DNA from: Vulcanimicrobiota bacterium
GTDB taxonomy: Bacteria > Vulcanimicrobiota > Vulcanimicrobiia > Eremiobacterales > Eremiobacteraceae
Assembly: GCA_019237415.1 (NCBI GenBank)
Contig: JAFAHD010000067.1
Location: forward strand, 1-32,223
DNA length: 32,223 bases
Reading direction: 5' to 3'
Shown: one piece after another, positions 629 through 19,668 of the stretch
Position numbering within the stretch: the stretch's first letter is position 1
Layout: each line of letters opens with the position of its first letter
Program-made: the position numbers and the translations under genes
Notes under the pieces: generated by a model
Databases searched by the model: none
The model's input: the letters and a program-made list of their open reading frames with translations, nothing else
Told to the model about the DNA's origin: nothing

Positions 629-703
629 GGCGACATAGCCAAGTGGTAAGGCAGAGCTCTGCAAAAGCTCCACTCGCCGGTTCGACTCCGGCTGTCGCCT
701 CCA
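629..703 (+). tRNA. tRNA-Cys (anticodon GCA)
   Basis: A full cloverleaf can be folded by eye. Acceptor GGCGACA (629-635) pairs with TGTCGCC (693-699). The D arm is closed by GCC/GGC. The anticodon stem GAGCT/AGCTC encloses the loop CTGCAAA, giving anticodon GCA. The T arm is GCCGG-TTCGACT-CCGGC. The discriminator base is T (700), the known identity base for cysteinyl-tRNA synthetase, and CCA is encoded at 701-703. The recG reading frame opens within the tRNA, so the two genes are effectively contiguous. Confidence 0.97.
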
Positions 704-4047: not shown

Positions 4048-4527
4048 ATGAGCATCTACACCGTGATCGACAAGCTCGAGGGCACGATCAAGGAAGGCGT
4101 TTGGCTGCCGTTCGGCGCGCGCATCGTGAGCCAAGACCGCTTGCTCGATCTCGTCGAGAAGCTGCGCTCGTCGTTGCCCGATGAGGTGAGCCGCGCGAAG
4201 GCGGTGACCAAAGACAAGGACCGGCTCATCGAAGATGCACGCGCCCAAGCGACCGCGATGGTCGCCGAAGCGTCCGCCGCGAAGACGCAGCTGCTCGACG
4301 ACTCTGAGATCACCAGACAGGCGACCGAGCGAGCCGCGCAGATCCTCGCGCAGGCCGAGGCGCACGCGCAAGAGGTCCGGCGCGGTGCCGACGAGTACGC
4401 CGACGGCGTGCTCGCGTCGCTCGATGCAAGCCTCGGCAACGCGCTCGCGGCCGTGCACAAAGGCCGCGAACAGCTGGCTTCGGATCTTTCGAGCAACGGC
4501 GCGCCGGCGACGCGCGCCCGTTCGTGA
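4048..4527 (+). CDS. Coiled-coil protein, DivIVA / ATP-synthase-b-like, following coaD
   Basis: This is a 159-residue soluble protein. The N-terminal 45 residues hold IDKLEGTIKEG and DRLLDLVEKLRSSLP. A long Ala/Glu/Gln-rich helix follows from about residue 50 to 135, with heptad-like spacing, and then a short disordered tail. Genes of this type next to coaD are often annotated as DivIVA-domain or ATP-synthase-b-like in actinobacteria and relatives; that is from memory, not a search. There is no membrane segment. Start ATG 4048 is preceded by AAGAGG about eight bases upstream. The last four bases (GTGA) overlap the GTG start of the membrane protease gene, so the two are probably coupled. Function is unknown; a scaffolding role at the membrane is possible. 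Confidence 0.75.
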   Translation: MSIYTVIDKLEGTIKEGVWLPFGARIVSQDRLLDLVEKLRSSLPDEVSRAKAVTKDKDRLIEDARAQATAMVAEASAAKTQLLDDSEITRQATERAAQILAQAEAHAQEVRRGADEYADGVLASLDASLGNALAAVHKGREQLASDLSSNGAPATRARS

Positions 4528-14910: not shown

Positions 14911-16056
14911 TTAGTGCGGCGCTGGGGCGACGTTGTTGTTGAGGTTGGGTTTCGGCGTGGCGACCTGGACCGCCGCCGAGCAGTTCTCGGCGCCACGGAA
15001 AAAGCCGCACACCCGGTATTCGAAATAGCCGTTGCTGGGCGCATTCGTGATATCTGAGTACGCGGCCGTGGGTTTGGCGATCTGCGGGCTTATCGACGCC
15101 CACTCACCCGTGTAGACGCCCTGATCCGCGAGGCCCTTCTTTGGACCGACCTGGACGAGGCGGCGCTCCACCTGATGCGAGTCGTCGTAGTCGGGGGTCC
15201 ACTTGACAATCACCACGCTGGACGTCAGCCGCGTCGCGGTTACCCCTTGGGGAGCAAATGCGCCGGGCATCGGCGCGGGGGGCGGCGCCGGCGTGCGCCA
15301 TTTGATCGCGACGCACGCCTGATCTCCGCGCGAACCGATGGCGCACACGGTGAAGTCGTACCAGGTCGCTGGATTGAGCGGGTAGATCAAGGTCTGGTCC
15401 TGTTCGTCGGTGGACGTGGGCATCGTCTTCGTCTGTGCGCCAGTCGTCGCGCCGTCTTTGATCCACGTGATCGTGTTCGATCTGACGGGGCTGTCGGACT
15501 TGACCGGCGGGTTGAGCCAACCCAACCCGACCGCTTCAAAACTTGACCCGGGAAGAACGCGCAGATTTTGAGGAGCTGGCACGCCGATGATCTTCGGCGG
15601 AGGTGGTGGACCGACCGGAGTGACGCCGATCCAATACGAGCAATAGTTGCCATAACTGCCGAACGCGGCGCAGACTTGGTACGTGTATTTTGTCGACGGC
15701 GACAGTCCAGTGTCCGTATAGGCGCCGGCATTTCCCGGCAGCGTCGCGACCGGTTTCCCATCGCGATTGATGATGATTTGATTGGGCATGAGGAGCGGAT
15801 AGCTGCCATTTCCATATGCATCGGTCGCGACGCCGCCCGAGTAGGCGAGCCATGCCAACGTATAGGTAGTGCTCGTCGCCGGCTTTGCCGCGGGGCCCAT
15901 CTCCGGCGCGATGATGCACACGGCATCCTGATTCAGGATGTTCTGATCGCATGTCATTTGGGTCGCCGAAGCCGGTGCAGAAAGCAGAAGCAGAAGCGTG
16001 AGCGCGCCAGCCATGAGGAAAGCAGATGCAGTGGCAATGCAACGACGATTGGACAT
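14911..16056 (-). CDS. Secreted protein with three cysteine-paired FnIII-like modules
   Basis: 381 residues starting at ATG 16056, with AAAGGG about ten bases upstream; a longer frame begins at 16086. A signal peptide (residues 1-32, hydrophobic GALTLLLLLSAPASA) is followed by an N-terminal C36/C47 pair, then three modules of fibronectin-III-like character (SPSTKYTYQVC, NPATWYDFTVC, GYFEYRVC). Each ends in a strand pair holding two cysteines (129/139, 238/248, 350/359) and the terminator VTP, RTP or ATP. Proline-rich linkers (GPPPPP, APPPAPMP) separate modules. The architecture suggests a surface or secreted adhesive or polysaccharide-binding protein that folds with disulfides outside the cytoplasm. 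No catalytic domain or anchor is seen. Base composition looks less GC-rich than its neighbours, which may mark an acquired gene. Confidence 0.75.
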   Translation of the reverse strand: MSNRRCIATASAFLMAGALTLLLLLSAPASATQMTCDQNILNQDAVCIIAPEMGPAAKPATSTTYTLAWLAYSGGVATDAYGNGSYPLLMPNQIIINRDGKPVATLPGNAGAYTDTGLSPSTKYTYQVCAAFGSYGNYCSYWIGVTPVGPPPPPKIIGVPAPQNLRVLPGSSFEAVGLGWLNPPVKSDSPVRSNTITWIKDGATTGAQTKTMPTSTDEQDQTLIYPLNPATWYDFTVCAIGSRGDQACVAIKWRTPAPPPAPMPGAFAPQGVTATRLTSSVVIVKWTPDYDDSHQVERRLVQVGPKKGLADQGVYTGEWASISPQIAKPTAAYSDITNAPSNGYFEYRVCGFFRGAENCSAAVQVATPKPNLNNNVAPAPH

Positions 16057-16143
16057 AGTGATGTCGCCCTTTTCGACTACGTGCAAACCGTCAATGAAAC
16101 GAAAGAGACAGTCGGCGAGTTCCAGGCCGGCCGGGTGATGACC

Positions 16144-16926: not shown

Positions 16927-18747
16927 ATGCTGGACGTCGCGAGCGTGGGGGCGCTCGAGAAGCTCGACCTTTGGTCGTGCCCCTTTGCGGTCGTCGACAT
17001 CGAGACGACCGGCAGCGTCGCTGGGCGGCATGCGGTCACAGAGATCGCGCTCGTACACGTCGTCGAGGGGCGGCTCACCAAGCGCTGGCGGTCATTTGTG
17101 AATCCGCGGCAGCCGATCCCGCGCTTCATCTCCGCGCTGACCGGCATCACCGATGACATGGTCGCCGGCGCCCCGCTCATAGGCCGCGTGTTGCCGGACG
17201 TGCTCGAGTTCATCGGCGATGCCATCGTCGTCGGCCACAACGTGCGTTTTGACGCGGGGTTCATCGAACACGAACTGCGCGCGCACGGCTACTCGAGCCT
17301 TGCGAACCCGACCATCGACACGCTGGTGTTGGCGCGCCGCACGATCGCCGAAGTGGCGAACTACCGCTTGGGAACGCTGACGCGTGAGCTGGGGATCGAC
17401 GTCGAACGACATCACCGCGCGCTGGCCGATGCCACCGCGACGGCCGAGCTGCTCGTGCACTGCATCCGCAAGCTCGAAGACCAGGGCGTGTTCACCTATG
17501 GCGGGTTGCTGGAGTGTTTGCGGATGCGCGCGCAGCCGCGTCGCCGCCCGCTGAGAGCGCGCGCGTGCGAGCCGCCCGCGCAGCTGCCGGTGTGGACGTC
17601 GATCCTGCTCGACGAGCTGCAAGAGGTGCCCTCAAAACCAGGCGTCTATCTGCTCAAGGACGCCGGCGACGGCGTGGTCTACGTCGGCAAATCGCGCAAT
17701 TTGCGCCAGCGGCTGCGCGCATATGCCACGACTGGGCTGCCCGCAGGCGGCAAGATACAGGCGCTGCGCGGCGTCGTGGCGTCGTTTGAGTTCTTAGAGA
17801 CAGGCTCCGAATTCGAGGCGCTGTTGCTCGAGGCGCAACTCGTGCGCCAGCACGATCCGCCGTTCAACGCGCTGCTGCGCAATTTCAAGGAGTTCGCGTT
17901 CCTCAAGCTCGAGCCGGGTCCGCGTGGCCGCGCGCTCGCGACCACCCGATTGCTTGCCGACGGCGCGCGCTACTATGGGCCGTATCGCAGCATGCCTGCC
18001 GTTCGCGCCGCGGTCGCGGCGCTGCAGGACGCGCTCGACTTGCGCGGCGACGATGCACCCCGATCCGACTCGCCGGTGGTGCCTCCCGGCCGTGCAGAAG
18101 CGCTCGTGGACGAGGCGATCGCGTTTCTCGAGGGGGCCGCCGACGACGTGCTGCTCGCGACGGCGCGCAGACGCGACGAAGCGACGGCGCGCGGGCGGCA
18201 CGAGGTCGCGTCGCGCGAGGAGCAGCGGCTCGAACGGCTGCGGCGCCTTCGCTCGAACCACGCGAATCTCGAATTCGCCGCCGGCTTGAACGTCGTCGTG
18301 CTTGCTGGCTCGACCGACCCCGCGATCGAGCAATGTTTTCTTTTCTGCGGCGGCCGGCTTGCCGGCCAGTGCGGGTTGCCGCGCCGGTTGCCACTTCGAG
18401 AAGAGGCGCGGCGCGCGTTGGCGACCCTGCTGGCCGAGCGCTATCGGCCGGGCTGCGCCCCTCACTCGTTCACGCGGCAAGAAGAGATCGACCAGATAGG
18501 CATCCTGGCTACGTGGTACCGAGAGCGGCGAGAGGGGTTGTGCTATATCGACCTGCCGGCCGTGGAACCGGGCGCCGGCTTGGCGGCCTCATGGGCAGCG
18601 GCGATCCTCGACGGCCAGCCGTTAGACGTGCGCCGGGAAGTACCAGAGAATCAAGGCGAACAGCAGCACGAATCCAGCCGTCAAGAGGTAGAAGACGAAA
18701 GCTGCCCCGCCATCGCCGGCGCGATGATGCTCGATCTGGCTGGTTGA
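16927..18747 (+). CDS. DEDDh 3'-5' exonuclease fused to a UvrC-type GIY-YIG nuclease domain
   Basis: 606 residues with two nuclease modules. Residues 15-185 are a DnaQ-type exonuclease: VVDIETTG gives Asp24 and Glu26, HNVRFDAGF gives Asp109 and HHRALADATATAEL gives His163 and Asp168, the full DEDDh set. Residues 235-320 form a GIY-YIG domain like the UvrC N-terminus / Cho: GVYLLKD and VYVGKSRNLRQRL, then EFEALLLEAQLVRQHDP, a UvrC signature. A C-terminal region with a UvrC-like middle part follows, but no UvrC RNase H-like endonuclease or HhH domain is recognisable. Similar fusions occur in actinobacteria (the Rv2191 type). It probably acts in DNA repair, cutting and trimming at lesions. The last 42 codons run antisense to a small membrane-protein gene and look non-coding in composition, so the natural end may be nearer 18625. 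Confidence 0.88.
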   Translation: MLDVASVGALEKLDLWSCPFAVVDIETTGSVAGRHAVTEIALVHVVEGRLTKRWRSFVNPRQPIPRFISALTGITDDMVAGAPLIGRVLPDVLEFIGDAIVVGHNVRFDAGFIEHELRAHGYSSLANPTIDTLVLARRTIAEVANYRLGTLTRELGIDVERHHRALADATATAELLVHCIRKLEDQGVFTYGGLLECLRMRAQPRRRPLRARACEPPAQLPVWTSILLDELQEVPSKPGVYLLKDAGDGVVYVGKSRNLRQRLRAYATTGLPAGGKIQALRGVVASFEFLETGSEFEALLLEAQLVRQHDPPFNALLRNFKEFAFLKLEPGPRGRALATTRLLADGARYYGPYRSMPAVRAAVAALQDALDLRGDDAPRSDSPVVPPGRAEALVDEAIAFLEGAADDVLLATARRRDEATARGRHEVASREEQRLERLRRLRSNHANLEFAAGLNVVVLAGSTDPAIEQCFLFCGGRLAGQCGLPRRLPLREEARRALATLLAERYRPGCAPHSFTRQEEIDQIGILATWYRERREGLCYIDLPAVEPGAGLAASWAAAILDGQPLDVRREVPENQGEQQHESSRQEVEDESCPAIAGAMMLDLAG

Positions 18748-18768
18748 GGTGACGCTCGGAGCTGACAT
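18622..18768 (-). CDS. Small single-span membrane protein (48 residues)
   Basis: An ATG at 18768 opens a 48-codon frame ending at TAA (18624-18622). The first 20 residues are polar (QIEHHRAGDGG), and residues 22-44 form one clear membrane segment (FVFYLLTAGFVLLFALILWYF) ending PAHV. Third codon positions are mostly G or C, as in neighbouring genes, while the opposite strand (the tail of the exonuclease fusion) has many A/T-ending codons here; this favours the small gene as the real coding strand. The frame is 126 bases antisense to the end of that fusion. No strong ribosome-binding site is seen (AGTGAG about eight bases upstream). It resembles accessory subunits of oxidases or other small membrane regulators only in general form; no family is recognised. 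Confidence 0.6.
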   Translation of the reverse strand: MSAPSVTSTSQIEHHRAGDGGAAFVFYLLTAGFVLLFALILWYFPAHV

Positions 18769-18921
18769 GGCACGCTCACTTTAGCGCATGATCCAGAAGT
18801 TCTGCTGAATATCATCTTCCTTTCAGCCATCGTGGAGATATGATGGCGCTCACGTCTAGCGGAGGCCTGACGGCACGGCGCGTCGTACGTCTGTCGAACG
18901 GGCCTCGCCACCGGTAACAGC
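18769..18921. other. Divergent intergenic region
   Basis: 153 bases between the leftward small membrane gene and the rightward secreted-protein gene. A TATGAT at 18839-18844 could be a -10 box for the rightward gene, with only a weak -35 (CTTCCT). A 24-codon frame from the ATG at 18842 lacks any coding character. Otherwise nothing recognisable. Confidence 0.4.
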
Positions 18922-19668
18922 ATGAAGCTTCGCACAGCCGTTCTCACCCTCGTCCTCGCCTGCACACCCGCTGCAGCGCTCGCGATCCCACACGCGACCG
19001 CGCCGATCAACTCGGTGACCAAGGACGAGCTCATCCCGCAAGGCACGTTCATCCGCGTCCGCATGCTCACGCCGCTTTCGTCGGCGTCGAGCCATGTGGG
19101 CGATATCTTCTCATGGGTCGTCTCCGACGACATCGTGGTCGGCGGGCGGACCATCGTGCCGGCCGGCAACGTCGGCTTCGGGCGCGTAGCGTACGTCTAT
19201 CCGGCGCACGGCGGCAACCAGCCCGGGTACGTGAAACTCCAGTTCTTCTCGATCGCGCTCACGGATGGCGGCAAAATCGACATCGGCGTCACCAAAGCGT
19301 CAGCAGTGCTCGACGAAAACGAGAAGAACGGTTACGGGCCGGCCGCCGACGACGTCGCGAGCATGTTCATCCCGTATTTCTTCATCTTCGATTTGCGTAA
19401 GGGCCAGGATGAGGTGATCCAAAAGAACGCGGTGTTCCACGTCGCGACGATCGAGGATGTGTTCGTGCAGCCCGCAGCCGTCGCGGTATCAGCAACGCCG
19501 CCGCCGGCGCCGTCACCTGCGCCGAGCGGAGCTTCGCCAGTACCTGCGACGCCGCAGCCCGGCGCATCGCCGACGCCGACGCCTCCGCCCGGCACGACCG
19601 GGCCGGGTCATCGCCCGACGCCCGCGCCGTCGACGCCGCCGGCTCCCGCCCCATCGCCTACGAGATAA
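18922..19668 (+). CDS. Secreted beta-rich protein with Pro/Ala/Thr-rich tail
   Basis: 248 residues. The signal peptide is MKLRTAVLTLVLACTPAAALA. A beta-rich core of about 165 residues begins IPQGTFIRVRMLTPLSSASSH and continues with VGDIFSWVVSDDIVV and TIVPAGNVGFG; alternating short strands and turn motifs resemble the barrel of VirB10/TrbI-type and other bacterial secreted proteins that keep a 'PAG' turn, but I do not recognise the family with certainty. Residues 190-248 are a Pro/Ala/Ser/Thr repeat (SPAPSG, TPTPPPG, APSTPPAPAPSP), likely extended and disordered, perhaps spanning cell-wall layers. It is preceded by a short intergenic region and converges with the FAH-family gene ten bases beyond its stop. 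Confidence 0.7.
   Translation: MKLRTAVLTLVLACTPAAALAIPHATAPINSVTKDELIPQGTFIRVRMLTPLSSASSHVGDIFSWVVSDDIVVGGRTIVPAGNVGFGRVAYVYPAHGGNQPGYVKLQFFSIALTDGGKIDIGVTKASAVLDENEKNGYGPAADDVASMFIPYFFIFDLRKGQDEVIQKNAVFHVATIEDVFVQPAAVAVSATPPPAPSPAPSGASPVPATPQPGASPTPTPPPGTTGPGHRPTPAPSTPPAPAPSPTR

Follow-up and report, generated by a model that had tools for sequence, protein, structure and literature searches.

The window, meaning the whole 32,223-nt stretch of contig JAFAHD010000067.1 that was analyzed, contains a convergent gene pair whose 3' ends overlap and a third gene divergent from the smaller of the two. The larger partner, at 16927-18747 (+), is a PRK07883-like gene that joins a DEDD exonuclease to a GIY-YIG nuclease. 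Its product matches RNase_T (9.7e-34) and GIY-YIG (1.6e-6) in Pfam and NF005906 in NCBIfam (1.4e-111, below that model's cut-off), with the exonuclease domain at residues 22-176, the GIY-YIG domain at 238-311 and the best NCBIfam model covering 14-554. The read-through tail at 18622-18747 (+) lies beyond all of these, and the absence of any domain over cut-off there agrees with the sequence-only reading, in which the tail had been described as lacking a domain.

Antisense to this tail is a gene for a 48-aa small membrane protein at 18622-18768 (-), with an ATG start and a TAA stop; the ATG at 18768 is the sole ATG, GTG or TTG start in the open frame. The overlap (18622-18747) amounts to 126 nt, or 42 codons with both stops counted, and is in exact antisense register, as expected from the earlier placement of the small ORF opposite the last 42 nuclease codons. 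Because codon boundaries are common to both frames, position 3 of the small gene faces position 1 of the nuclease. The small frame has a GC content at third codon positions (GC3) of 0.77, consistent with the GC-rich third positions reported for it. The nuclease frame has a GC3 of 0.62 in the overlap versus 0.83 in its body, so the 'A/T-ending codons' attributed to its tail hold relative to the body but not otherwise.

The divergent neighbor at 18922-19668 (+) encodes a secreted-looking protein with a Pro/Thr/Ser-rich C-terminus and no Pfam or NCBIfam family over cut-off. Its homologs occur in 97 of 101 genomes searched (E<=0.001), often with several per genome. On the far side of the nuclease gene, an ORF at 14911-16086 (-) matches a fibronectin type III domain.

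Features of the small membrane protein

The 48-aa protein begins with a polar head of about 20 residues that precedes a single membrane span. The transmembrane core at residues 23-41 (18646-18702, minus strand) reaches a hydropathy maximum of 2.63 (Kyte-Doolittle, 19-residue mean), and AlphaFold2 predicts one helix at residues 19-47, with block mean pLDDT values of 89 and 96 over residues 21-40; the polar head is of low confidence and the overall mean is 74.6. These results bear out the layout of polar head plus single span that had been proposed from the letters. All ten members of the family found in related genomes (46-50 aa) have a single strongly hydrophobic stretch, with 19-residue means of 1.98-2.66, and at fewer than 60 aa, with a single hydrophobic helix some 20 residues long, each of them classifies as a small single-span membrane protein.

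Nine of 50 alignment columns are invariant in all ten members (M1, D19, G21, A23, F26, Y27, W42, P45 and H47), and F33 and Y43 are nearly so. The most compact conserved element is a C-terminal motif before the stop, W-Y-x-P-[RKAT]-H-x (18625-18645, minus strand), in which W42, P45 and H47 are present in 10/10 members and Y43 in 9/10. Across the family the heads carry 1-7 K/R and 2-5 D/E and the tails 0-1 K/R; since these charge differences are weak, an N-in orientation is only weakly favored, with the W-Y-x-P-R-H end inferred to sit at the outer face. By eye, a Shine-Dalgarno-like sequence is clear in some genomes only, and a scan finds no sigma-70-like promoter or terminator.

Searches of the small protein against PDB, PHROGs, PADLOC and plasmid sequences return no match, and a phage tblastn search yields only 15 mycobacteriophage matches at E 4, which are taken as noise. 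Matches to known families are confined to single members and fall below cut-off. The window's protein alone matches DUF983 (PF06170) at residues 11-40 (E 0.014; 16.1 versus a cut-off of 22.6 bits), and this assignment was rejected, as the match covers only 30 of 85 profile positions and the other nine members are unmatched. One member has an SPT_ssu-like match (E 0.08), and the protein of genome G006 matches TorE (E 0.029; 14.1 versus 77.75 bits) and NapE (E 0.19; 11.9 versus 68.8 bits).

Distribution and placement among relatives

The small protein was searched as a single sequence against 101 genomes and as a profile built from ten homologs against 117 genomes of the class (14 in the window's family and 103 outside it). 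The single-sequence search gives matches at E<=1 in 26 genomes; the ten at E<=4e-4 all belong to the window's family, and the other 16 (E 0.012-0.8) lie outside it and are discounted as homologs. The best of these, in G081 (E 0.012), was inspected by eye and seems to straddle the boundary between two frames, the end of a cytochrome-oxidase-like one and the beginning of the one that follows. As follows from its construction, the profile recovers its ten source members, all at E 3e-20 or better; its remaining matches reach only E 0.02-0.5. With these taken as noise, the small gene is present in 10 of 14 genomes in the family and in 0 of 103 outside it. The frame is thus conserved as a protein among relatives, the comparison by which the sequence-only reading had suggested it be judged, and because of this conservation the small ORF is beyond chance. 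Judged from these searches, it represents a new orphan small-protein family, apparently confined to one bacterial family among the genomes searched. Among annotated records of the lineage none was found with the small gene, which is absent from the one named family record, and a limited literature search on Eremiobacterota small proteins gave nothing evidently on it.

The small gene lies between the nuclease gene and the divergent gene in nine of the ten genomes that have it. The tenth copy, in G008, has a different locus, flanked by genes for a solute-binding protein and for a formate/nitrite transporter, and is divergent from the latter. At the shared locus the nuclease ends ahead of the small gene in five of nine genomes, leaving gaps of 377 nt (G004), 7 nt (G005), 38 nt (G011), 28 nt (G012) and 114 nt (G013). 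It reads through into the small gene by 126 nt in the three genomes of the window's genus (G000, G001 and G002) and by 99 nt in G006, and only these genomes have the tail. Six small genes, including the one in G008, therefore have no opposing nuclease frame. Where there is no overlap, the nuclease ends shortly after the position that corresponds to residues 564-573. From this arrangement the nuclease tail appears to be a late arrival and the overlap secondary; the relatives lack the tail and not the small frame, the reverse of the pattern that would have told against the small ORF. Parsimony suggests that the lineage leading to the window's genus lost the nuclease stop, and that G006, which the nuclease tree does not place firmly, lost it in the same event or in one of its own.

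In the four family genomes without the small gene (G003, G007, G009 and G010), the nuclease gene lies close to the divergent gene, and a search for a relocated copy with the G008 protein as query gives one match at E 0.74, which is noise. The nuclease tree groups all four with support of 100/99, whereas in the divergent-gene tree G007 pairs with G008 and the four do not form one group; a single loss is thus likely rather than certain.

Selection on the overlapping frames

Codon-position and window comparisons were made among the three genomes of the window's genus, with codons 1-566 serving as the nuclease body. Variable sites at nuclease positions 1, 2 and 3 number 121, 76 and 333 in the body versus 19, 8 and 13 in the overlap, so that in the overlap the wobble position of the small gene becomes the most variable one. 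None of 526 body windows of 40 codons has as many variable sites at position 1 as at position 3 (highest ratio 0.61; Fisher p 0.0002), although three related sequences with a common history make both the window count and the p value indicative only.

Pairwise dN/dS for the small gene, obtained with a home-made Nei-Gojobori count, is 0.11 (G004/G013), 0.12 (G005/G012), 0.25 (G004/G011) and 0.33 (G013/G011) for pairs without the overlap, 0.26-0.32 for pairs within the window's genus, and 0.18 and 0.46 for two pairs with G006, the third pair being saturated. Within the overlap, a home-made two-frame count after the OLGenie logic (as outlined in PMC7531306) puts the small-frame ratio at 0.30 (bootstrap 0.15-0.55) and the nuclease-frame ratio at 0.53 (0.27-1.11). 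The value of 0.30 alone is indecisive, since control windows from the nuclease body, read in the same antisense register, equal it or fall below it in 36 of 527 cases. The result for the nuclease frame is firmer, with a tail ratio above that of all 527 body windows (highest 0.41). Taken together, the codon-position shift, the pairwise values and the two-frame count indicate that the small frame is under purifying selection. The nuclease tail is itself probably under little constraint at the protein level, but because its ratio lies below 1 some constraint may exist.

Interpretation, possible roles and a candidate operator

By comparison with relatives, 18622-18768 is a real, conserved and separate gene for a family-specific single-span membrane protein. 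The full explanation we favor, and hold to be somewhat better than even, is that this gene was present beside the nuclease before the nuclease grew into it, and that its product assists or regulates a larger membrane protein and is under a CRP/FNR-type regulator. The small gene would have stood next to the nuclease gene and divergent from the gene for the secreted-looking protein, and loss of the nuclease stop codon would then have produced a secondary convergent 3' overlap. In such a case the antisense short ORF is the part shown to be real by comparison and the tail of the long gene is the part to doubt; convergent overlaps of this kind are a natural annotation trap. Two short proteins of E. 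coli O157:H7, ano and laoB, are likewise encoded antisense to an annotated gene (see also the review PMC7457138), ano being described as almost completely embedded and laoB as originated by overprinting. Here, by contrast, relatives have the small gene without any overlap, and it is the tail of the larger gene that came later.

The reverse possibility, that the functional part is the C-terminus of the nuclease, with an antisense frame that only looks conserved, is highly improbable. All 3/3 genomes within the genus have an open tail, as G006 has in part, the tail ratio is below 1, and in-register antisense stops are rare anyway in the GC-rich nuclease gene (5, 2 and 2 in 566 codons). An antisense by-product, however, would not be expected to persist in six genomes without an opposing nuclease frame, which refutes this reading unless those genomes are misassembled, nor to draw the variation in the overlap to its own wobble position opposite a tail whose ratio is worse than that of every body window. 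It is also quite unlikely that the gene acts mainly at the RNA level, with its convergent transcription tuning the nuclease. The geometry would allow this, four genomes having 3' overlaps of 99-126 nt and three more having gaps of 7-38 nt, but the small frame is under protein-level constraint and the gene persists at another locus in G008. A hydrophobic peptide resembling a type I toxin, with its mRNA under antisense RNA control, would likewise be small and single-span, with its own upstream region and a patchy presence among genomes. We consider this very unlikely, since there is one credible copy per genome, mostly at one fixed chromosomal place across genera, PADLOC, plasmid and phage searches give no credible match, of which the PADLOC result bears on toxicity only indirectly, the polar-head residues D19 and G21 are conserved, and the convergent nuclease mRNA is the only antisense transcript suggested.

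An unlikely reading, though one with several points in its favor, is that the protein is a small subunit of a respiratory enzyme, of the CydX, CcoQ or NapE/TorE kind. Size and shape fit, the TorE and NapE matches in G006 point the same way though far below cut-offs, the divergent neighbor of the G008 copy is a formate/nitrite transporter gene, and a CRP/FNR-like site lies beside the gene. Cytochrome bd (PF01654), whose cydA gene normally shares an operon with that of CydX, occurs in only two of the 14 family genomes, G009 and G010, neither of which has the small gene, and COX1-type oxidases occur in all 14 and do not separate the two groups; a CydX role is therefore out and an oxidase role unsupported. 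In the stretches inspected, no gene next to the small one could be recognized as an oxidase or reductase. The two cytochrome bd genes are at G009:C13:220-1473 and G010:C77:1060-2325.

Returning to the family-specific membrane protein, by analogy it would most likely serve a larger membrane complex, as an accessory subunit or as a regulator, and its single helix might pack against a larger membrane protein. Proteins of the CydX, AcrZ, KdpF and YohP type are similarly below about 50 aa with one helix and frequently act as subunits or regulators of larger membrane proteins (PMC11539335, PMC4325964, PMC7267776 and PMC12719787). The present gene differs from these in having no sequence match, in not lying beside a recognized membrane-complex operon and in being restricted to a single family in the genomes searched.

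The intergenic region that the small gene shares with its divergent neighbor contains a dyad at 18840-18853, ATGA-N6-TCAC (GTGA-N6-TCAT on the strand of the small gene). CRP/FNR sites consist of two inverted half sites of the TGTGA-N6-TCACA type, which we take the dyad to resemble. The pattern [AG]TGA-N6-TCA[CT], picked after inspecting the nine stretches from these related genomes, occurs toward the divergent gene in 9/9 genomes with the small gene at this place, twice in G006, and in 0/5 of the stretches ahead of the divergent gene in genomes that lack the small gene or have it elsewhere; G010 has one match, at -278, which lies inside the nuclease gene. The relocated copy in G008 has no such dyad upstream either. 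In first-order Markov shuffles 0.6-1.8% per stretch hold a dyad, and a stricter form is nearly unique in the genomes, with 10 matches across all 14, six of them at the small-gene locus. Crp-type HTH proteins (HTH_Crp_2) are encoded in all 14 genomes, in 13 of them over cut-off, and a regulator of CRP/FNR type may control the small gene through this candidate operator. The family would then add an orphan small protein with both a clean motif and a candidate operator. More speculatively, and on the doubtful side, a family-specific small membrane subunit with a dedicated CRP/FNR-type switch and the 18922-19668 protein could form one envelope-response unit that is on under one condition, such as a change in oxygen or redox state.

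Upstream of the small gene, a block with the sequence AGATGATATT lies a few bases before the ATG in G002 (L073, about 4237-4255), a position compatible with a leaderless transcript, and some 40-50 nt upstream of the ATG in two sister genomes. A genome search with GCTAGACGTGAGC, allowing 2 mismatches, shows no excess (43 matches versus 143 for the reversed control). Elsewhere in the window, an Rfam scan finds nothing besides a tRNA gene at 629-700 (+), which overlaps the listed start (643) of an ORF for a RecG-like helicase, whose true start is probably further in.
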